Assembly: GCA_033439265.1 (NCBI GenBank)
Contig: JAVTVX010000016.1
Coordinates: forward strand, 17,902,701 to 17,966,700
Direction of reading: 5' to 3'
DNA: 64,000 nt
DNA from: Dillenia suffruticosa
Taxonomy: Eukaryota > Streptophyta > Magnoliopsida > Dilleniales > Dilleniaceae
Below, one piece after another: positions 19,831 to 40,170 of this stretch. The notes below the pieces were generated by a model. It did no database searches, was not told where the DNA came from, and was given only the letters and a program-made list of their open reading frames with translations. The stretch's first letter is position 1. The number at the start of each line of letters is the position of its first letter. The position numbers were made by a program, and so were the translations under genes.

Positions 19831-20820
19831 AAGGAGCCCTCCCCACTATTATTCTCCTTCTTTTATTAATTTTAACATGAAGTTACTGTTAACAAGAGTT
19901 TGATTTTCAAAATTTTCATAAACGAAGAATGTTTCTTCGTTGGTTTTAGAGACAAACGAATGTTATATACAATATTATTTATTTAAAATAATGATAGCCC
20001 ATTGCCGACTCCCAGTATTTCATTCTCAGTCATCTTGTACTAATTGAGTCCACTTAAACATGGGTCTATCAATCTCCCACGAGGACACACCCATTCTGGG
20101 TGATTGGCATCCCTTACTAACATTAGATGTTTTCGATGATGTAAGACACAATCTTAATCTTTGCACAAAGAGAGAGAGATGTATATGTCTTGAGAAAAAA
20201 GATTATGCCTTCCATGTTAGACTGTAAATGAATTATTTATGGTTCTATGGATCCGCAGAATCCAAGATAGTGGAAGACCCCAGTTGGGAGCTCCACTTGT
20301 AGGACAATCAGATTCCTCCTTGAAATTCCTTCCATGACGGTTCTTTTCAATCTCAAGATGCTCATTGCAGAATTATAAACAGTGGTCTACTCACCCATTG
20401 ATGCCAAATAATATATCCATAGAGAGAGAGAGAGAATTGAAATTTGGTTCACATTCTTGTCTTAGTCAAGTCCTACCATCTCTCCTCTTGAAAACTTTTC
20501 TTACTCTATTAACAGTTCAAGGCCTTAAATTGGAAAAAAAAAAAAAAAAAAAAAGAACTCACATTAATTCTTTTTTGAGGTAAATGGTCTAATCAAGTTG
20601 AACCTGACCTGGTAAAGCCCAAGTCAAACGGTACCATTATTTAGGTGATTGAATCTGGAAAAACAAAATTTAGCAACTCCCAAAATATAGTATTTTGCAC
20701 AAAAATTACATACTTTATTACAATTTTACAATTTTCTTTCAAAAAAAATGAAAATTTATATCTTTTTATTTATATTTGAGAAAATTGTTTTATATTCAAA
20801 TTCATTCTTCAACATCAAAT
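19831..20820. other. Unassigned stretch
   Basis: AT-rich DNA with an AG run at about 20406-20417 and a 20-base A-run at about 20534-20555. No gene is visible. Confidence 0.45.
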
Positions 20821-20830
20821 AATTTTGTTC

Positions 20831-20835
<5 letters not shown>

Positions 20836-20861
<26 letters not shown>
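20836..20861. repeat. CT microsatellite
   Basis: About 13 CT dinucleotides in a row. Confidence 0.9.
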
Positions 20862-20866
<5 letters not shown>

Positions 20867-21105
20867 AGGAGAAGCGAGCAACGCCAAGACCTCCGATGTA
20901 GTTTTCTGGTGGTTTTCAAGCCATTGAGCCCGGAGCTCACATAGAATTCGTCAGGATTTCACAAAGCATCAACATAATCTATTTATTGCAAATTGTTCAT
21001 ACACTAACCATTTTACGAATTAAACCAAAAATTTTAATTACTATTTTTTGAGGGTGCAGAACTTTTAAATTCTACTTAAGCTTACAAATGCATGTTCATA
21101 CACTA

Positions 21106-21290
21106 ACATAGTGAAAAGGGCACTAGTACCCCACACCAAAAACCAGGGTTTGAGTCTTGATAGTGACAAAAACAACGTTGGGAGAGTTCCCTCCCGATTG
21201 GGATCCGATGGCAACTCGACCGAAATTAGTCGGAATAAAATTTCGGATATTCGGCGGTGGATCAAGTTGAGTGGACAAAAAAAATAATTT
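21106..21290 (+). mobile_element. tRNA-derived SINE
   Basis: It has an A-box-like TAGTGAAAAGGG start, a B-box-like GGGTTTGAGTC (about 21146-21157), a GAAATTAGTCGGAATAAAA body segment and a terminal A-run (21276-21283). The body is like that of the other SINEs in this window. Confidence 0.7.
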
Positions 21291-21470
21291 ATTTAAAAGT
21301 TGCAAAACATTTAATATGTGAAATATTTAGGTGACTTTTGAACGATACAAAGGCCTCACCTAAGGTTACCGATTAAAACAGGTGTAGAAAAATCCATATT
21401 TCTGATGGATGTTGAAGGAGAAGGTCGATGACTGAAAATAAAATGGCCTCAAAAAACAATAGACACAATT

Positions 21471-21543
21471 TTTTTTTCTTATTTGATCAAGTATCCACGA
21501 CTTGATTAATCCGATTTGAATAATTATAAATTCTAATATAAAA
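21471..21543 (-). mobile_element. 3' fragment of a SINE abutting the tRNA array
   Basis: A T-run followed by CTTGATTAATCCGATTTGAATAATTATAAA matches the 3' end of the SINE at 53825-53999. It is truncated exactly where the first unit of the tandem array begins. Confidence 0.6.
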
Positions 21544-21668
21544 ACTTGCTCTCCTAGTGCCTACATTAATCATGACTTGTACTCGGACAAAGAATAGTCA
21601 AGGCCCTAACTCATCATTTAACCAATCATTTAACTAGCTTTACCTGGCCATTAGATGTGACATTCCAA

Positions 21669-21738
21669 GCACATATGGTGTAGTGGTATCATAGTACCCT
21701 CCCACAGAACTGACTGGAATTTGATTCCTAGATGCGCA
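21669..21738 (+). pseudogene. tRNA-Gly(CCC)-like unit 1
   Basis: Nearly full length (70 bases) with loop CTCCCAC. The 3' half of the anticodon stem is disrupted (AGAAC) and so is the T-stem. Confidence 0.85.
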
Positions 21739-21901
21739 TGTATGTGTATTTTTCATTTTTGTTTAGTAAATAAAATTTTCTCAAAAGAAACTTGCTCTCT
21801 TAGCACCTACATTAGACACGACTTGTGCCCAACAAAGAATAGTCAATGTCTTAACTGATCATTTAACTAGTTTTAACTAGCTATTAGATGTGACATTCCA
21901 A

Positions 21902-21973
21902 GGACATCTGGTGTAGTGGTATCATAGTAACCTCCCATGGTTCTAACCGGGGGTTTGATTCCCCGAATGTGCT
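21902..21973 (+). pseudogene. tRNA-Gly(CCC)-like unit 2
   Basis: Full length with anticodon CCC. The T-stem is intact but the variable region has an extra base and the acceptor stem is mismatched (GGACATC against AATGTGC). Confidence 0.85.
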
Positions 21974-22085
21974 TGCATGTATTTTTTTCATTTTCTTTTC
22001 ATAAATAAAATTTTCTCAAAAATAACTCGCTTTCCCAACGCCAACATTAACCGGCTTTAACTTGCCATTAGATGTGACATTCCAA

Positions 22086-22128
22086 GCACATTTGGTGTAT
22101 TGTTAACATAGTATTCCCCGGATACACA
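22086..22128 (+). pseudogene. tRNA-Gly-like unit 3, internally deleted
   Basis: Only 43 bases. The sequence jumps from CATAGTA straight to TTCCCCGGATACACA, losing the anticodon loop and the 5' T-arm. The same junction recurs in units 6 and 11. Confidence 0.85.
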
Positions 22129-22270
22129 TGCATGTGTATTTTTTCATTTTTCTTTTGTAAATAAAATTTTCTCCAAAAATATATGCCCTCTCTTATTCGT
22201 GGCAAAGAATAATCAAAGTCCTAACTGATCATTTAACCAGCTTTAACAGCAATTAGATGTGACATCTGTA

Positions 22271-22341
22271 GTGCATCTAGTATAGTGGTATCATAGTACC
22301 CTCCCATGATATTGTCTGGGGTTTGATTTCCCAAATGTGCA
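22271..22341 (+). pseudogene. tRNA-Gly(CCC)-like unit 4
   Basis: Full length, 71 bases, anticodon CCC. The anticodon stem is GTACC/GATAT (mismatched) and the acceptor is weakened by transitions at former CpG sites. Confidence 0.85.
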
Positions 22342-22477
22342 TGCATGTCTATTTTTCATTTTCCTTTCTTAAATAAAATTTTCTCAAAAAAAAAATCGCT
22401 CTCACTTGTGCCCGACAGTCAAGGTCATAATTGGTCATTTAAACAGCTTTAACAAGTCATTAGATGTAATATTCCTA

Positions 22478-22525
22478 GCGCATCCTCCCACGATATTGAC
22501 TGGGGTTCAATTCCCCGAATGAGCA
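22478..22525 (+). pseudogene. tRNA-Gly-like unit 5, D-arm deleted
   Basis: GCGCATC is joined directly to CTCCCAC, removing the D-arm and the 5' anticodon stem. The T-stem and 3' acceptor strand remain. Confidence 0.85.
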
Positions 22526-22686
22526 TGTGTATAGTTTTCATTTTCCCTTTGTAAATAAAATTTTTTGGAAAGAAACTCAGTCTCCCATTGCCTACATTAG
22601 ACATAACTTGTGCCCATCAAAGAATAGTTAAGGTCCTAACTAGTCATTTAATCAGCTTTAACTGGCCATTAGATATGACATTCCAA

Positions 22687-22729
22687 GCGTATTTGTTGTA
22701 ATGGAATCATAGTATTCCCCGGATACGCA
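22687..22729 (+). pseudogene. tRNA-Gly-like unit 6, internally deleted
   Basis: It has the same CATAGTA-TTCCCCGG junction as unit 3, leaving 43 bases. Confidence 0.85.
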
Positions 22730-22871
22730 TGCATGTGTATTTTTCACTTTCCTTTCATGATTAAATTTTTCCTGAAAGAAACTCACTGTCACTTCTACCC
22801 GGAAAAAAATAGTCAAGGTCCTAACTATTTATTTAACCAGATTTAACTGGCCATTAAATGTAACATTCCAA

Positions 22872-22942
22872 ACGCATCTGATGTGGTGGTATCATAGTAC
22901 CCTCCTACAGTATTGATGATGGTTTGATTCCCTAAATGCACA
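22872..22942 (+). pseudogene. tRNA-Gly-like unit 7
   Basis: Full length. The loop is CTCCTAC, so the anticodon would read CCT; the T-stem and anticodon stem are both broken. Confidence 0.8.
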
Positions 22943-23100
22943 TGCATGTAAATTTTCATTTTCCTTTCGTAAATAAAATTTTCTCAAAAGAAACTCTCTC
23001 AATACCTACATTAAACACGACTTGTGCCCGGTAAAGAATAGTCAAGGTCTTAACTGATCAATTAACTAGCTTTACCAGCAATTAGAAGTGGCAATCCCAA

Positions 23101-23171
23101 GCGCATTTAGTATAGTGGTATCATAGTACCCTCCCACAATATTGACTTGAGTTAGATTCCCCGAATGTGCA
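23101..23171 (+). pseudogene. tRNA-Gly(CCC)-like unit 8
   Basis: Full length, 71 bases, loop CTCCCAC. The 3' anticodon strand (AATAT) and the T-stem (TTGAG) no longer pair. Confidence 0.85.
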
Positions 23172-23313
23172 TGCATGTACATTTTTCATTTTCCTTTCAT
23201 AAATAAAATTTTCTCAAAAGAAACTCACTCTCACTTGTGCCTGACAAAGAATAGTTATCGTCCTAACCGGTCATTTAACCAGCTTTAACTGGCCATGAGA
23301 TATGACATTCCAA

Positions 23314-23375
23314 GTGCAACTCATATAGTGGTACCCTCCCACGGTACTGACCGAAGTTGGATTCCCGGATGCACA
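23314..23375 (+). pseudogene. tRNA-Gly(CCC)-like unit 9, shortened
   Basis: The anticodon loop CTCCCAC is intact and GTACC/GGTAC can pair, but about nine bases of the D-arm region are missing and the T-stem is mutated. Confidence 0.85.
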
Positions 23376-23539
23376 AGCGTGTGTTTTTTTCATTGTCCTT
23401 TAGTAAATAAAGTTTTCTCAAAAGAAACTCATTCTCCTAGTGCCTAAATTAGACATAACTTGTGCCTGACAAAGAATAGTCAAAGTCCTAACTAGTTATT
23501 TAACCATCTTTTAACTCGCCATTAGATGTGACATTCCAA

Positions 23540-23592
23540 GCACATCTAATGTAGTGGTATCATAGTACTCTCTCACGGTATAGACCAGAGTC
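23540..23592 (+). pseudogene. tRNA-Gly-like unit 10, 3' end lost
   Basis: The body breaks off in the T-arm and fuses directly to the spacer of the next unit (CTGCATTAGACACGAC), as expected from unequal exchange within the array. Confidence 0.8.
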
Positions 23593-23685
23593 TGCATTAG
23601 ACACGACTTGTGCCTGACAAAGAATAGTCAAGGTCCTAAATGGTCATTTAACTAGCTTGGACTGGCATTACATATGACATTCAAA

Positions 23686-23728
23686 GCGCATTTGGTGTAA
23701 TGGTACTATAGTATTCCCCGAACGTGCA
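23686..23728 (+). pseudogene. tRNA-Gly-like unit 11, internally deleted
   Basis: Third copy with the CATAGTA-TTCCCC type of deletion (43 bases), here with a mutated D-arm. Confidence 0.83.
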
Positions 23729-23858
23729 TGCATGTGTATTTTTCATTTTCCCTTTGTAAATAAAATTTTCTCGAAAGAAATTCACTCTCACTTGTTCTGT
23801 CATGGTCCTGACCGGTCATTTTACCAGCTTTAACTGGATATTAGATGTGACATTCTTA

Positions 23859-23929
23859 GCGCATCTAGTGTAGTGGTATCATAGTACCGTACCACGGTAG
23901 TGACCGGGGTTTGATTCCCCCAATTTGCA
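23859..23929 (+). pseudogene. tRNA-Gly-like unit 12, anticodon ACC
   Basis: Full length, with a perfect GCGCATC start. The loop is GTACCAC, giving anticodon ACC (still glycine). One mismatch in the anticodon stem, one in the T-stem, and a broken 3' acceptor strand (AATTTGC). Confidence 0.85.
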
Positions 23930-24059
23930 TGCATGTGTATGTTTCGTTTTCCTTTCGTGAATAATGAAACTAGCTCTCACATGTGCCTAGCAGTAAATGG
24001 TCAAGGTCCTAATTGGTCATTTAACTAGCTTTAACTGGTAATTAGATGTGACATTCCAA

Positions 24060-24130
24060 GCGCATCTGGTCTAGTGGCATCATAGTACCCTCCCATGGTA
24101 CTGACCGGGGTTAGATTCACCGAATACGCA
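24060..24130 (+). pseudogene. tRNA-Gly(CCC)-like unit 13, best preserved
   Basis: Full length, with an intact GCGCATC strand and an intact anticodon stem GTACC/GGTAC around CTCCCAT. It has one T-stem mismatch, two acceptor mismatches, and TTAGATT for TTCGATT in the T-loop. It is the copy closest to a functional gene, but I would still call it a pseudogene. Confidence 0.8.
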
Positions 24131-24293
24131 TGCATGTGTATTTTTCATTTTACTTTGGTAAATAAAATTTTCTCAAAAGAAACTTGCTCTCTCAGCGCCT
24201 ACATTAGACACGACATGTGCCCGGCAAAGAATTGTCAAGGTCCTAATAGGTCATTTAACCAGCTTCAACTGGCCTTTAGATGTGACATTCTTG

Positions 24294-24356
24294 CTGCATC
24301 TGGTGTAGTGGCATCATAGTACCCCCATAATATTGACCGGGATCCCCGGATGCGCA
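24294..24356 (+). pseudogene. tRNA-Gly-like unit 14, shortened
   Basis: Its 3' acceptor strand GATGCGCA is perfect, but bases are lost in the anticodon loop and T-arm (63 bases). Confidence 0.83.
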
Positions 24357-24497
24357 TGCATTTATATTTTTCGTTTTCCTTTTGTAAATAAAACTTTTTG
24401 GAAAGAAACTTGCTCTCACTTGTGCCTGGCAAAAAATAGTCGAGGTCTAACTAGTCATTTACCTAGCTTTATCTGGCCATTAGATGTGACATTCCAA

Positions 24498-24568
24498 GGG
24501 CATTTGGTGTACTGGTATCATTATACCCTCCCATGGTATTGACCGGGGTTTGATTCTCCAAATAAGCA
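24498..24568 (+). pseudogene. tRNA-Gly(CCC)-like unit 15
   Basis: Full length. The anticodon stem pairs through compensating bases (ATACC/GGTAT) around CTCCCAT. Acceptor and T-stem have mismatches. Confidence 0.83.
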
Positions 24569-24730
24569 TACATGTGTATTTTTCATTTTCCTTTGGTAAA
24601 TAAAATTTTCTCGAAAGAAACTCACTCTCCCACCGCCTACATTAGATACGACTTGTGCCTGACAAAGAATTGTCATGATCCTAACTGGTCATTTAACCAA
24701 CTTTACTGACCATTAGATGTGACATTTCAA

Positions 24731-24800
24731 GCGCATCAGTGTAGGGGTATCATATTGCCCTCTCACGATACTGACCTGGGTTTGATCATCCGAATGCACA
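24731..24800 (+). pseudogene. tRNA-Gly-like unit 16
   Basis: Last unit, 70 bases. The loop is CTCTCAC (anticodon CTC, which would be glutamate), the D-arm has lost a base and the T-arm is mutated. After its T-run and a final TAAATAAAATTC the array stops. Confidence 0.83.
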
Positions 24801-25064
24801 TGCATGAATATTTTTCATTTTTCTTTCGTAAATAAAATTCTCAAAACCCCACTTAAGAAATTTTTTTGTGTTATTATACTCCTTTCTCAGTACGCAAAAT
24901 AAAATATACAAAATGAAAAATGCAATCAACTCACTATATTACTAATGATTAGTACTTATTTGTCTATTTTCTTCCGACGATATTATATTATTTAGACAAA
25001 TAATTACTCGCATGTCATCAAATGCATCCAAAAAAATATTATTCCTGTTATACTAATTTATAAT

Positions 25065-25265
25065 GGTACCAACCTCTGATAATTCAATTGGTTCGGGGAC
25101 TAACACCCCTTAATCATTGTCGGGAGTTCGATCCCCTATGGGAACGGAAAAATCAGCGCTAGGAGACCTACCTCCTTAATTATGCCCTGCAAGCGGTCAA
25201 TCCAGATTAGTCGAGACGAAACCCCAAATACTGGATTGGTGGTCTAGTCATGGTACCAAAAAAAA
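25065..25265 (+). mobile_element. tRNA-derived SINE (same family as 42828-43025)
   Basis: About 200 bp. An A-box-like TGATAATTCAATTGG and a near-perfect B-box AGTTCGATCCC (about 25126-25136) are followed by a body with GGAAAAATCAGCGCTAGGAG and GATTAGTCGAGACGAAA, and then an A-run at 25258-25265. The body can be followed word for word in the minus-strand copy at 42828-43025. No clean target duplication was found. Confidence 0.8.
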
Positions 25266-25754
25266 TAATAATAGTAATTGATGTTCCATTTGGGTTTTTA
25301 ATTTTTAAAATAATGTAGAAATTTCTGTTATTTATTTTATACATATTAATAAATTTATAAGATACGCACCGGTTAAAATTATAACAAAATTTACTTTATA
25401 AATTTATTGACATAAATTATTGTCGCAAGTAATAATCATTAAAAATTCAATTTTGCACATATATAATACTAAAAATCAAAATATCAACTTTATAATTAGA
25501 AATATATATTAAAAAAGTCAACGCTGATTAATCATTTTTTTTTTTGCTTATCAATTTTATTTGATAAGAAATTTTTCTCAACCGAACCTATTTACAATTA
25601 ATACAACTCATAATTATATAAAATTGTTTGTATCACATGTTTATTTATACTAGTTAATTGAGAATATAAATCACATGTAGTGCATAATGTCACTAGTTTA
25701 ATTAAGTACCTTAAGCTACCAACTTTACAGAATTTGCTTGCAGTCCATAGTGAT

Positions 25755-26220
25755 TGATGATGCATGGCCAAAAGGACCCAAACTGCACTGAGCTCAAGAA
25801 TGGTTCAGATTGACTCCCTATACTCATATTGCTTGCTCAGTCGGCAATCACCTAATTGATCAACCATTTAGTTTGAAAACCTATCCCTCCCGACCCCTAG
25901 TCCAAGAGACACACTGATTGAAACATGTCAACATGAGATTTATCTCCCAAATGGGTAGACACAGCTCATATCCACACTGTATTCATCGACCAAGTTCTGA
26001 TCAGTAGATAGTTGCTCGATCACAGTACCTCCTTGGTGTTTGGTGATCGCCATTCCTCCATATGAGGCAAATATTTACTTTTCCTGAAAATGCGGATAGA
26101 ATTTTCCGTAAATGGAAAGGAGACTTCAAATCGTAGAAAGAAATCCTTATAGCTGTCCAAACTTTCCCAATCGATAGCATTTAAAATCTTTTGAAATCCT
26201 TTCATCATAATCCCGATAAT
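25755..26220 (+). repeat. Left LTR of the Tat-like relic, shortened
   Basis: It aligns with 31064-31553 and then stops; the downstream half present in the right LTR, and the primer-binding site, are missing. Confidence 0.85.
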
Positions 26221-27420
26221 CTCAAGCTTGAGGTCCAACTCCCGACCAGCCACCCAAATCAGTCGACATCCCTTGTCGCCCCTACTTCTCCCGAAAGGGT
26301 TACTCAACCTCAGATAGAGAGACTAGAATCCAAAATACAAAATATGAACAAGCAGCTAGAAGAACTTAGTCGCACACTTGGACCAGGAACCCAATCCTCT
26401 TCTCACGGATCAAGCCACATACGCACACGGAGGCTCGAAGCCAAAGAGCACCAATAGCCCTCAGTGATATCCCGACACGACCCGAATGATCTAAGGAAAC
26501 AGGTCAAGAAGCTCATAGCAAACAAGCTAATGCGAGCGAATGTGAAGAGAGATTAGCATGCTCAATATCCCACTGGTCTCTCACCATTTAATCCCAAGAT
26601 CTCTTCAAAACCAATGCATCGCGATGTGCTTCTCCCTCTTTTGGAGAGGTACGACGATACCACCAATCCTAGGGATCACATCACCTACTCTATCACCGTG
26701 ATGATCTCGAGAAACATGTTAGACGCCTCCATATGCAAACACTTTCCAACAACTCTGAACGGCAACGTGTTGACATGGTTTAATTCACTCCACCCCTTTA
26801 GCTTTAAGAGCTTTTCTCAACTTCGGCAACAGTTTGAGATACACTTTGTCATTAATAGAGGGGCTAAGAGGAAGTCTGCATCCCTCCTCTCATTATGACA
26901 GAGGAGGACAAGTCGTTGAGAGAACTTCTCGAGACGTTCAAAGCATAGATGATGAAGGTATCTGGACTAAACCATTCCATCGCGATGATGGCACTGCTTA
27001 CAGGACTACGGTCGCCAGAATGAAGACATCTATCACTAAGAATCTTTCGTCCACTATTCAAGAATTTTAAGTACGAGTGGAGAAATATATCGCTACGGAA
27101 GATGTCGAAGCCTTTGATAGGCAATGTAACCAATCAGCTCAGAAAGAGAGTAACCAATCACCTCGTCAATCCTCACCCAAGAAGGCCAGCCAAGGGCCCC
27201 CACAATAATGAAGGTTTACTAGTTACACCCCTCTGAATGAGACTCCTAGTCAAGTGCTCCTCCAAATTCAGAACAAACCCTATATCAGGTGGTCTCCTCG
27301 CCCTACAGAGGATGATTATAAGAAGGAGAAGACTCGATATTGTCACATTCACCAAAACTATGGCCACCTCACTCATGAATGCAAAAGGCTAAAAGATGAA
27401 ATCGAGTTTCTTGTTTGAAG
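26221..27420 (+). pseudogene. Tat-like gag remnant
   Basis: It contains a short coiled-coil-like segment (IERLESKIQNMNKQLEELSR, about 26317-26376). A capsid segment follows (about 26614-26860) with the YDDTTNPRDHI and LTWFNSL motifs typical of Tat/Athila-type gags. Decayed. Confidence 0.82.
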
Positions 27421-28379: not shown

Positions 28380-28800
28380 CCAACCTATCTTTAGGGATCT
28401 ATCTCTTCGAATGGATAACTGTCACTTAGTCCTCCCGAATGTAGTCTATCGTTAGAGATCTATCTTCCCGAACAGGTCAGTATCACCCAGTTCTCCCCAA
28501 CGAAGCCTATCATTAGAGATCTATCTCCCCGAACAGACCAGTGTCGCCCAATCCCCCTAAATGGAGCATATCATTAGGCATTTATCTCCCCGAATGAACC
28601 ACTGTTGCCTAGTCCTCCTGAACAGACCTATTGTTAGGGATCTGTCTCCCCAAATGGACCAGTTGCTTTGTCCTCCCAAATGGAGCCTATCATTGGAGAT
28701 TTTTCTCCTTGAATGGGCCAATGTCGTGCAGTCCCCTATAATGAAACCTATCATTAGAGATCTGTCTCACCAAACAGGCAGGTGTTGGCCAGACCGTCGA
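28380..28800. repeat. 60/61-bp tandem repeat, seven units
   Basis: The phrase TTAGAGATCT(A/G)TCTCCCCGAA recurs at about 28391, 28452, 28512, 28573, 28633, 28693 and 28753, a period of 60-61 bp. Each unit also carries a CAGTGTCGCCCAGTCCTCCC-like half. It sits between the protease remnant and the antisense-coding segment. Confidence 0.9.
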
Positions 28801-35638: not shown

Positions 35639-38600
35639 TTATAGTTTGAGACTGCGGTAGTCAGGCCCCTCTGGTTGTAACATTCCGTCACCGATCTTCA
35701 TGCCTAGAGATCCATCTTCTTCGGCATCAAAACTGGCATGAACACTATATAAAACATACACAATCACAGTGAACACCGAGAAAATTCCAAATCTTATGTA
35801 GGAGGGTTTGTCAAGAGATCCAAGCAAGAAAATGTTGAGAAAGATTGAAATGGAAGGGATCCATGGCATTAGTGGGACACCCCAGTACGCAGGTTTTTGA
35901 GCTTGAGGCACTAGGCAATGGAACATCTGCAATACTGCAGCAGCAACTACAGTGCAAGCTCCAAGCATGTAGGCCTTAGGCTTGCCTGCAGGAGCAAATT
36001 GCCATATGAGAGTGAAGACAATGGAGGTTAGTGAGAAACATATGAGGAAGGATAATGTGGGCCATGGATTCGTTGTCCCGACCATGACATATCGTCTGTA
36101 AATCACAGCATTGGCAACCATGTAGAAGACAAAGAGCGTGCCGATGGTGACTAGGTTGAGTAGTATGTCTAAATCCGTGAAAAGGGCAATTGCCGCCGTG
36201 AAGATGCCTAAAAATGAAAGCAAGTTGACATGTAAAAACGAACATTTTATGAACAAAAAATTGACAAGTTACATGCCTTCACATGACTTCCCAGCAAAAT
36301 TTGATCCTAGATCTCTCTAACTCGACAAAAAAAAGTATAATATTTTGAACAAAACACGTAATAATCTTCTAACTTCATTAAACTATTCCAATGGATAAAG
36401 ACATTATACATGCATAATAGGGAAAATTACAAGCAACAATTTTGTCCTTTGAAACTAGAACTTGGCGATGGCATGGCTCAAGGCTTTACTTGAAAGGGAA
36501 TTTAACGTTGGGGGCTCATGGCTGTATGATTGAAACAAAGGTCACTTTCAGAGTGTAAATCACAAAGAGAAGAGACTTTATGTGAATCAAAAGCGTGGAT
36601 TAATCAAGTCAAAAGAAATTGGACAATTTGCTGATATAGATACCACTAAAAAACATATGATTTGAGTGCATAGAATATGTCGGATAGCTTCTACATAGAT
36701 TGATATTCCAATAGATAAGATAATTCATTATGCCATTTTCCTGTTGACATTAAGATGCTTACCTAATCAATTTAATATACCTAATCAAAATCACTCAACG
36801 GGTTTGAGGAATTAAGACTATTGAGTAATACCCATCAAAGATTAAGCCAAATGAGGACAATTTTCCAATTTAATATAGGAAAATTCGACCCCCATTTCAT
36901 TTAATTATCAACTAATTCAGATTCATATAGAAACTATGATCAAAAATTGAAATGTAAATTAATTGAGAATCATCCCCACTTCATATTAATAAATTTCAGA
37001 ACCAAGGGGGAAAGTGAAAGGGTTCAACAATTCACGAGATTCAGACTGCAAAAGGAAGAGCCAGATCAGGCCAAAAACTAGAGATAATAGATTGGATCCA
37101 AACACAAAACCCTAAACGTCGTTGATTGAAGCAGCCCAAGTGCCAATACCAATCCCCCAAGAAAAACATTTATGTGTTTAGTCGTGAGAACTGAAACAGT
37201 TCAAAGGTGGGTCCCAAAAATCAAAACGTCCCAGATAAAAGCATCATCATCAAAACCGCAATGCTCACAACTCACAGCACAACATTAGCATGGACTAGAG
37301 TCGTTACCCAGAAATGCTGAGGCATTGACGGGCGTCGACGTTTTGTGGTGGACCTTAGCAAACCACCTGGGAACCACGCTCGACCGTCCGATCACGCACA
37401 TGTATCTTGCTTGCCCCAACATCGCCACCATCAGCGACGTTAAAATTCCAAAACTGGCCCCACCACCTATTACGTTAGATGCCCATCTCCAGCCGTCCGA
37501 TTTCCCTCTGAATGCCGCCGAAAATGGCGCCTCCGGATCAATCTGGCACCATGGTAATTAATAACCAGTCAGGGTTAAAACCGTCATTTCATAATGAAAA
37601 TTGCAATTGAAAACAGAAAACAGAATTTTTGGTCAATTTTGACCTTAGTTACACTTTTGACATCACCAAAATTTTTCCAAAACAAGTATGAGATGAGGGC
37701 AAAAATCATTATCACAGGGAAAACATGAAGAGAGAGAAAGAGAGAGAGATGATACGGCGTCGTATGGGAGAAGCATGGACATGGAAGCAGCCATCAAACA
37801 GTAAAGCACAGTGACGATTGCAACCGAACCCGAAACTCCAACCGGTATATCCTTAACCGGGTTTCTAACCTCTTCAGCCATCGTTGAAACGGCGTCGTAT
37901 CCAATATAGCTCAAGTAAACCATTGCGGCTCCGTCAAACACGCCCGAAACCCCGAACGGAAAAAACCCACCCGCATGATTTTGCGGGTCCAATGGCTCCC
38001 AAAAATTCTTGGAATTTCCTTTCCAGAACCCGACAATTATCACAAACATTATGAACAGAATATGAATCGCCGTCAACGCCATGTTCAACACTGAGCTCTC
38101 TCTAGTACTATACAAGCACACCCAAAAACAAAAATGTCAATTTCAAAAAACAGAGAGAGAGTAAAAAAGTTGTAGTGAGAGAAAATGTGGGGTACCTGCA
38201 ACAGATGATGAGAGTGAGAATTATAACAACAAGAACAGCAACCAAATCAATTTCATTGAACCCTTTTGGGAGAAATGAAATTGTCAGTCTCCATTTCTCT
38301 GTTGACAGTCCAATTGCAGTCCCTAAGTAGGCCGTGAAACTCCGCGATACGGCCGCGTTGGATAGAACATAGTCCATTACAAGATTTGCACCCGTTAGAA
38401 ACGCCGCAAATTCCCCTAGAATTTTTAAAAAAATTAATAATCCATAAAAATTTTAAAATAAAAAACACGTATATTAATGTTCAGGAATCCGGATTAAATT
38501 AGAATTGGATACCGAAAGTGACGCGGATGTAGCTAAAGGCGCCGCCAGCTACAGGCATGTCGACGGCGAACTCGGTGTAGCAGAAAGCAGAGAGAAGGGC

Positions 38601-38897
38601 ACAGAATCCGGCAATGGCGTAGGAGATGACGACGGCGGGGCCGGCATAGAGTCGGGCAGCGCGGCCAGTAGTGACGAAAACGCCGGCCCCGACCATGCCG
38701 CCTATGCCGAACCCGACGAGGTCGAACCAGCGGAGGGATTTCTGCATGGTTGAACCTGACCGGGCTTTGACCCGACTCATCTCCTCGTAAGACGTGGAGA
38801 CTGAGCAGGCTCGCCTGGCGAGCCGTGTTGGGAGGTTGGATAAGGCTTCGGAGTAGGCCTTGAGGCTTGAGAAAGATGAGCCATGGTTGTTTTCCAT
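35639..38897 (-). CDS. Cationic amino acid transporter, CAT6/CAT7-like
   Basis: A plasma-membrane-type amino acid/proton symporter of the APC superfamily, which in plants moves basic and neutral amino acids. Five exons with GT-AG junctions on the minus strand: 38513-38897, 38196-38415, 37756-38107, 37308-37542 and 35639-36207, together 1761 nt or 586 residues plus stop, the usual length of the CAT6/CAT7 group. The N-terminus (1-58) is cytosolic and ser/arg-rich. The substrate-site glycine motif GIGGMVGAG is at residues 64-72. Other family signatures are GGAFSYIR, YIGYDAVSTMAEEV, NPVKDIPVG, LLPYDAIDPEAPFSAAF, LVAMLGQARYMCVIGRS-like and STPVNAS; about 14 hydrophobic segments follow in order. 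The start is the first ATG, in context AGGTATGG, after a CT/GA-rich leader. No break was found, so it is probably functional. CAT5 is the closest alternative subgroup. Confidence 0.96.
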
Positions 38898-38945
38898 ACC
38901 TCTTCTCTCTCTCTGTCTGAGATTTTTGTTTTTTTCTCTCTCCTG
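38898..38945 (-). other. Probable 5' UTR of the CAT gene
   Basis: A short purine-rich leader (GAGAGAAAAAAACAAAAATC then CAGACAGAGAGAGAGAAG on the minus strand) lies between the TATA-like element and the start codon. The start of transcription is inferred from the usual spacing of about 30 bases. Confidence 0.5.
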
Positions 38946-38967
38946 GGATATGAGGTTGAGGGGGGGT

Positions 38968-38975
38968 TTATAAAG
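38968..38975 (-). promoter_or_regulatory. TATA box of the CAT gene
   Basis: The minus strand reads TTTATAAA, about 70 bases upstream of the ATG. It is immediately preceded on the minus strand by a CT-rich run (38979-39000), a common plant core-promoter arrangement. Confidence 0.62.
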
Positions 38976-40170
38976 GTCGAGAGAGAGAGGGGGGGGGGAT
39001 GAACATCAACAGCATCAGAAACAAGAATTGTGATTAATAACACCCTTTTCTGTTTGGAACAAAAGAAAGTGTAAATAAATATATTTTTTTCTTCTTCATT
39101 TGCAAGTATAGGTACAGATTGGAACTAAAATGATCAAAACCGTAACGGAAGGATAGTCCGCATTTCAGAATCAAACTTGAAACCAGGGTGGAAGCGCATT
39201 AAAATTTCCAAACCACAAAATTAAAACAAAAGGGTAACAGCCATCTATAAAGCAAATGACCAAAAATGCCCCTCCTAACATTCAAATACCAATTATTTGG
39301 GAAGACATTTTAGTCGATAATAATTCATTGATTCTTTGAATGGTTTTGACGGTATATTCTTTTTATTTGATTGTAGGTATTTAGGTTATTTGATTAATTT
39401 AATTAATTATTATAAAATTTATTTTAAGGTTAAAATCTTTCGATACATATTTTTATAATCATGAGATTTTAATTCAAAATTTTAATTAAAAAATTTTAAT
39501 ATTTTATCATCAAATTTATAAAAACTTAATTTTAACAATTTCAATAAAAAAAATCAAAGTATCTCACCGTCAACAACTAAATAATGGCCCGTTGAAAGAG
39601 CAAAATATTTATAAATAAGAGAGTTAAATGAAACATTTTTTATGCTAATAATTTTTAATAAAAAATTATTTAATTTTATTTAAATTTTATCTTCATTTTC
39701 TTAGGCGGGGTCTCAGCTAATACTAATGCCATTTGTAATGAAAATGGAACGCCCAAACTAGGGTGAACAAGTATAATTTTGCCACACTTGTTGCTAAGCC
39801 AAAAATATCTGGCTAACAATGATTAATTGCAAATCCCTGCAAGAGTCTGTTCGAAAATTAACTTTCATGGGTGTAGTAATAGGATTAATCATTGATGATT
39901 TGAAGAATAAAAATAGAAAAATCAAATCATTTATTTTAATCTGTATTAATTTTAAATTAATCAAGTAAAATCTAACCCTTCCTTCCATCCTTCCTTCCTT
40001 CAGTAAGAGAGAGAGAGAGAAAAAAGAAGAATGTTAGATTTGAAAAATAAAAATAAAAAAATAAGTTTCGAAATAGTTAATTTTTTTAATAGATATTGGA
40101 TTCAGATTTATCGGGTAAAGTCAGGCTCTTCGGTGAGAGAGAAAAGAATAAAGAAGAGATAAACTTATGC

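Follow-up and report, generated by a model that had tools for sequence, protein, structure and literature searches.

A tandem array of sixteen decayed copies of a transfer RNA (tRNA) gene, tRNA-Gly(CCC), lies on the forward strand of a 64,000-nucleotide stretch of Dillenia suffruticosa DNA (contig JAVTVX010000016.1; hereafter the window), where it runs head to tail for about 3.3 kb, from position 21543 to 24844. Alignment of the units, together with the tRNA call on their consensus, identifies the array as a tRNA-Gly(CCC) locus amplified with its flanks, as an initial annotation of the sequence had proposed; deletions, lost B boxes and the lack of detectable constraint show that the copies have lost their function. 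The account that we hold with high confidence is that a single nuclear tRNA-Gly(CCC) gene was amplified in an early burst, methylated, and left to decay neutrally. The founder would have been one nuclear gene that carried along some 110 bp of sequence on its 5' side and some 50 bp on its 3' side. Slippage or unequal crossing-over, the usual mechanisms for tandem arrays, most likely produced the head-to-tail copies. At least one copy that was already broken would itself have been copied during the expansion, after which the array would have been methylated, little homogenized and subject to neutral drift, and today it is presumably transcriptionally silent.

Structure and identity of the repeat unit

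The initial annotation had placed sixteen tandem units at 21544-24846, and sixteen are recovered within our limits (Table 1). The units range from 156 to 246 bp, and the length of about 233 bp given for them earlier comes near the size of an undeleted unit rather than the mean, which is 206.4 bp. The consensus unit has 230 positions, in which about 110 bp of 5' flank are followed by a 71-nt tRNA body and then by an A+T-rich 3' flank of about 50 bp containing a T-run. Two features noted at the outset accompany most bodies: a CAA no more than 10 nt upstream (12/16) and at least four T downstream (15/16). Unit boundaries were set by hand, with profile matches as a guide. Independently of these hand-set edges, the last search round matched the unit profile to the array in 18 pieces (33-252 bits), the first opening at model position 105 and the last closing at 114, so that both ends of the array fall at almost one point of the repeat.

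Applied to 50 dinucleotide-shuffled versions of the array, a profile of these units scored no higher than 13.2 bits, and elsewhere in the window (positions 1-21500 and 24901-64000) it gave three matches, every one with E of at least 3.8; when the array served as a blastn query, none of the 55 rows fell outside it. With sixteen tRNA-derived loci in 3.3 kb, decayed copies included, the array has the density of a plant tandem tRNA cluster (at least three such loci per kb, head to tail). The term "minor satellite", also used initially, is generous for 16 copies that occupy 3.3 kb at one place in the window and are hardly homogenized, given that satellite DNA forms long, homogenized arrays with many copies in a genome.

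The majority consensus of the 16-unit alignment is called as tRNA-Gly(CCC) by ARAGORN, in keeping with the fold first assigned to it, whereas none of 200 mononucleotide shuffles of this consensus yields any tRNA. On native DNA, ARAGORN at its default setting calls one unit (24060-24130, Gly CCC). With a lowered threshold it reports Gly at the body of 5/16 units (2, 4, 8, 12 and 13), and since the same run reports Arg at the body of unit 7, Glu at that of unit 16 and many calls off the bodies, it is weak evidence. The covariance-model search suggested in the initial annotation detects the tRNA signal: in a permissive run over 20500-26000 (E up to 1), the Rfam tRNA model matches seven of the 16 units, every match being on the forward strand and at a unit position, and one of them (24500-24568, 29.1 bits) reaches the gathering score of 29, by a margin of 0.1 bit. 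The anticodon is kept in 13 units and reads CCC in nine; the others (CCT, CTC, ACC and CTC) are each one change from CCC, as expected of a cluster with a single isotype. On the strength of the ARAGORN call, we presume that the consensus resembles known plant tRNA-Gly(CCC) genes. Four strings from the tRNA core had no occurrence in the open-access literature texts searched, and two core patterns had none in prokaryote genome contigs and none in viral contigs, which has little bearing on plant DNA. A survey of flowering plants required high-confidence genes (PMC11700998), a standard of which the array falls short, since one unit in 16 reaches the gathering score, with 0.1 bit to spare; we therefore class the array as a fossil rather than a live cluster.

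Could the tRNA resemblance have arisen by chance within an unrelated satellite? That 15/16 units fall below the gathering score might suggest so, but the shuffled consensus never gives a tRNA, the seven Rfam matches all coincide with unit positions on one strand, and sliding the 3' partners of the cloverleaf by 1-3 columns leaves only 28-47% of cells paired, versus 72.7% in register. We consider such a coincidence scarcely credible. It is also highly improbable that the array is a tRNA-derived short interspersed nuclear element (SINE) amplified in tandem. The units do combine a tRNA-like part with an A-rich 3' end, and a possible SINE head was recognized by eye about 220 bp downstream (25067-25160); however, the tRNA is internal to the unit, where it is preceded by 5' flank and a CAA and followed by a T-run, and both the array and its units begin with 5' flank, not at the tRNA 5' end where a SINE would start.

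Decay of the copies and cytosine transitions

Deletions of at least 2 nt interrupt seven of the 16 tRNA bodies (units 3, 5, 6, 9, 10, 11 and 14), leaving nine without such deletions, and TTCGA is absent from the B box of all 11 units that keep a readable one. Divergence from the consensus amounts to 143/991 cells (14.4%) in the tRNA, 71/729 (9.7%) in the 3' flank and 239/1540 (15.5%) in the 5' flank when all columns are counted; removing 28 poorly aligned columns at the 5' edge (the "trimmed" alignment below) lowers the last value to 155/1253 (12.4%). After correction for base class, the ratio of change in the tRNA to that in the flanks is 0.80, which ranks 59 among 230 circular shifts (0.90 and 39 of 202 when trimmed). 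In the nine bodies without large deletions, standard pairs occupy 72.7% of cloverleaf cells versus a shuffle mean of 73.3%, two-sided changes affect 4 pairs versus 3.1 expected, and covariation is 0.132 versus 0.131 in shuffled data. The cloverleaf is present, yet there is no sign of its upkeep after copying; with the edge trimmed, the body is at least as diverged as its flanks, compensatory pairing shows no surplus, and the decay is that of a neutral sequence.

Judging by this decay, the array probably makes no usable tRNA today. We find it very unlikely that it is instead a silenced yet usable cluster, similar to the Ser/Tyr cluster of Arabidopsis, with one or two active units (13 and 15). 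Unit 13 is called by ARAGORN, unit 15 passes Rfam by 0.1 bit, and the Arabidopsis cluster is described as reactivated in root tips despite methylation (PMC12308677); against this, both units have mismatched stems and lack a TTCGA B box, and the body is without detectable constraint. A search for a conserved element within the unit returned a top-conserved 12-mer that is unremarkable (permutation P 0.51). As a separate observation, CATGCATG stands directly 3' of the tRNA body in nine units and occurs once elsewhere in the window; its 12-mers are absent from the 14 most conserved ones listed, and we used this motif, which we take to be of the RY type, for no conclusion.

The pattern of substitution suggests how the array may have been silenced. 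Counting both strands of the trimmed alignment, transitions occurred at 54/202 cytosines in CG, 38/196 in CHG and 90/852 in CHH contexts, and at 62/1723 A/T positions, and column permutation separates both CG (P 0.00005) and CHG (P 0.0042) from CHH. Transversion rates differ little (0.069, 0.046 and 0.049 for CG, CHG and CHH, trimmed), untrimmed transition values are much like trimmed ones, and the rates at cytosines are alike in tRNA and flank. Deamination of 5-methylcytosine in plant heterochromatin would be expected to leave just such an excess, in CHG and CG contexts alike, and this CG > CHG > CHH gradient suggests that the array was probably methylated and silenced. The locus had initially been described as silenced and then lost: loss is borne out by the deletions, the B boxes and the lack of detectable constraint, and silencing is the part that the gradient would imply.

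The B boxes pose a puzzle. At the position of the CG in TTCGA, the 11 readable units have TG (7), AG (2), GG (1) or CA (1), at the same time as consensus CpGs remain intact in 40/100 cells and T columns are changed in 7.3% of cells. By hand arithmetic that treats copies as independent, at a site picked after looking, a founder with an intact TTCGA would leave none in 11 units with a probability of about 0.004 (about 0.09 if the rate is taken from the single CpG that survives least often, 3/15), and a founder with TTTGA would show at least four changed units in 11 with a probability of about 0.006. Since both values are near 0.005, drift from either founder is not an easy explanation. One could suppose that the array was copied for reasons unrelated to tRNA, for example as a small repeat that seeds heterochromatin or forms a boundary, and that its RNA polymerase III (Pol III) promoters were removed convergently, a scenario that we think improbable.

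Growth of the array and competing origins

The tree of units is nearly star-like, with internal branches making up 6.9% of its length (6.7% trimmed), and mean pairwise identity is 0.76-0.79 at each spacing from 1 to 15 units (0.78-0.80 trimmed). A star-like tree and an identity that is nearly independent of spacing together argue for an early burst followed by independent drift, with little later homogenization. Units 3, 6 and 11 have in common one 28-nt deletion inside the tRNA, and a broken unit was therefore most likely itself copied.

A clade of units 4, 5, 7, 9, 12, 13 and 15, supported at 94%, vanishes once the 28 edge columns are removed and was dropped, and with its loss we claim no order of duplication. 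The best supports in the trimmed tree are 88% (units 5 and 14), 86% (4 and 8) and 71% (13 and 15), and a string search found a short 5' edge common to 6/16 units. A dimeric repeat, suggested by an alternation of edge types, was set aside because a runs count made by hand was not significant. Units 13-14 and 15-16 were called as a 438-bp dimer repeat (23966-24837, 82% matches); within it, the identity of units 13 and 15 (0.87) is the highest of any pair in the array, whereas that of units 14 and 16 is 0.78. Among the 25 longest of 101 inverted-repeat pairs in 20000-26500, none adjoins the array as terminal inverted repeats would. Two inverted pairs (I4 and I7), which match an A-run about 1.0 kb to the left with a T-run 0.7 kb to the right of the array, were rejected as low complexity.

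Several observations weigh against amplification, methylation and neutral decay of a single gene. The edge matches that could have seeded duplication do not exceed chance, as the 7-base AAATTCT (at 21528 and 24835) is equaled by 8.8% of random pairs. After the base-class correction given above, the tRNA body has changed slightly less than the flanks (0.80; 0.90 trimmed), though its rank does not set it apart from other blocks of the unit. For CpG, the observed/expected ratio of the array (0.56) is only slightly below that of the window as a whole (0.61), so that the methylation reading is not peculiar to the array, and the transition pattern was scored against a majority consensus, which is able to misassign ancestral states. 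Finally, the pentamer AAAAC occurs at each end of the array (21541 and 24843), where it might be taken for a target-site duplication, although a shared 5-mer occurs near two random points in 17.5% of cases.

These edges would represent a 5-bp target-site duplication if the array were derived from a Helenus-type terminal-repeat retrotransposon in miniature (TRIM), a small retroelement with a tRNA-like promoter, arranged in tandem with long terminal repeat (LTR) and internal part alternating. Helenus of Selaginella, which combines an LTR of 120 bp with an internal part of 85 bp, approaches the size of the array unit, and tandem arrays of one animal family are mentioned in the same source (PMC10886601). 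However, AAAAC is of low complexity and frequent by chance, the stretch between its two copies is not of the form TG...CA, the consensus contains no polypurine run of at least nine, the best match to a primer site (10/13, with initiator Met as the sole primer tried) lies inside the tRNA D-arm, and no additional LTR is seen at the array end. Conserved A and B boxes are reported there, as is isotype disagreement in many families (PMC10886601), whereas the array yields a whole Gly(CCC) body and TTCGA in 0/11 units. We allow this origin only a slim chance, and amplification of a single tRNA-Gly(CCC) gene is the reading adopted below.

Table 1. Coordinates of the array and its units in the window.
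Feature	Coordinates	Strand	Description
Whole array	21543..24844	+	Phase 5' flank, tRNA-Gly(CCC) body, 3' flank; profile and alignment
Unit 1	21543..21788	+	Body from 21669; anticodon CCC; B box TTTGA
Unit 2	21789..22023	+	Body 21902-21973; CCC
Unit 3	22024..22179	+	28-nt deletion within tRNA, common to units 6 and 11
Unit 4	22180..22392	+	Body 22271-22341; CCC
Unit 5	22393..22573	+	tRNA positions 8-30 deleted; CCC; B box TTCAA
Unit 6	22574..22779	+	28-nt tRNA deletion as in units 3 and 11
Unit 7	22780..22991	+	Anticodon CCT
Unit 8	22992..23221	+	Body 23101-23171; CCC
Unit 9	23222..23425	+	D-arm deletion of 8 nt; CCC
Unit 10	23426..23591	+	Lacks tRNA 3' end and 3' flank at unit 11 junction; anticodon CTC
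Unit 11	23592..23778	+	28-nt tRNA deletion as in units 3 and 6
Unit 12	23779..23967	+	Body 23859-23929; anticodon ACC
Unit 13	23968..24180	+	Body 24060-24130; CCC; sole default ARAGORN call on native DNA
Unit 14	24181..24406	+	tRNA deletions of 2 and 6 nt; CCC
Unit 15	24407..24618	+	Body 24500-24568; CCC; sole Rfam gathering match in window, 29.1 bits
Unit 16	24619..24844	+	Anticodon CTC; last unit

Neighboring features and relation to known tRNA clusters

Downstream of the array, the possible SINE head at 25067-25160 (+) contains A-box- and B-box-like motifs and gives no Rfam match at E up to 1. A weak Retrotrans_gag match at 26557-26895 (+; E 0.001, below the Pfam cut-off) may mark a decayed LTR element, and a second tandem repeat, with a period of about 61 bp and 6.4 copies (70% matches), lies at 28384-28774. 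Three open reading frames on the reverse strand (35642-39005) match AA_permease_2, AA_permease and AA_permease_C and are the only ones above Pfam cut-offs among the ten scanned.

Tandem tRNA arrays are known in plants, as the initial annotation had stated for Pro and Tyr/Ser, and Ile and Cys can be added (PMC11700998, PMC10701932). The survey of flowering plants reports clusters of tRNA genes for Pro, Tyr-Ser and Ile; the high-confidence filter that it applied should exclude pseudogenes (PMC11700998). Across 50 plant species, 1338 clusters of non-identical neighboring tRNA genes, each of 2 to 110 genes, have been recorded in a study that covers tandem genes for 21 amino acids and in whose tables a Gly case may stand (PMC12652284), and the main text of an earlier survey, which dealt with tRNA genes and pseudogenes in eukaryotes, is without the word "Gly" (PMC2888827). 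The earlier remark that no Gly-CCC array was known agrees with this literature, in that none is described for plants among the open-access matches listed.

The array appears to show how a plant tRNA gene cluster ends, after a burst, probable methylation and neutral decay. Surveys with a high-confidence filter would miss such fossils; clusters may therefore form more often, and with less of a bias to Pro, Ser, Tyr, Ile and Cys, than surveys indicate. The CG > CHG > CHH gradient over tRNA and flanks further suggests that long-term silencing of a cluster can be read from sequence alone.

Among tandem systems outside the plant clusters, the human tRNA repeat at 1q23.3 is similar in having units that bear tRNA genes, two of them Gly, but its units are 7.3 kb long with five tRNA genes each, 98% identical, and number 9-43 per allele (PMC4041453). 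Helenus TRIMs resemble the array in unit size (about 200 bp) and in their tRNA-like Pol III promoter, and differ as LTR retroelements with a primer-binding site, a polypurine tract and target-site duplications (PMC10886601); the array shows no polypurine-like run, a match to the one primer tried only within the tRNA body, and an AAAAC pair that is not beyond chance. The maize tRNA-Ile cluster is, like the array, a plant tandem array of a single isotype (28 copies in maize), but it serves another amino acid and was found by a high-confidence filter (PMC11700998). The tRNA-Pro and tRNA-Ser/Tyr/Tyr clusters of Arabidopsis are likewise plant nuclear tandem arrays and are described as methylated (PMC12308677, PMC11700998), predominantly at CG and CHG in the case of Ser/Tyr (PMC12308677); they differ in isotype and in that Ser/Tyr is expressed in root tips (PMC12308677, PMC11700998), whereas the array has no clearly intact body.

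Another counterpart is the tRNA-Cys(GCA) cluster on Arabidopsis chromosome 5, which also consists of short head-to-tail units, each with one isoacceptor tRNA and its flanks, has a degenerate copy (a pseudogene) at one edge, changes in copy number mostly by whole units, and is described as epigenetically silenced, albeit incompletely (PMC10701932). Its units number 4-6 and measure about 420 bp; in the reference they are 84-94% identical and their four tRNAs are high-confidence, and the cluster overlaps Helitron annotations (PMC10701932). The array has 16 units, with a mean identity of about 78% and none clearly intact. The Dillenia array thus belongs, as a fossil, to a familiar class of plant tRNA cluster, built on Gly, which is not the usual amino acid there.

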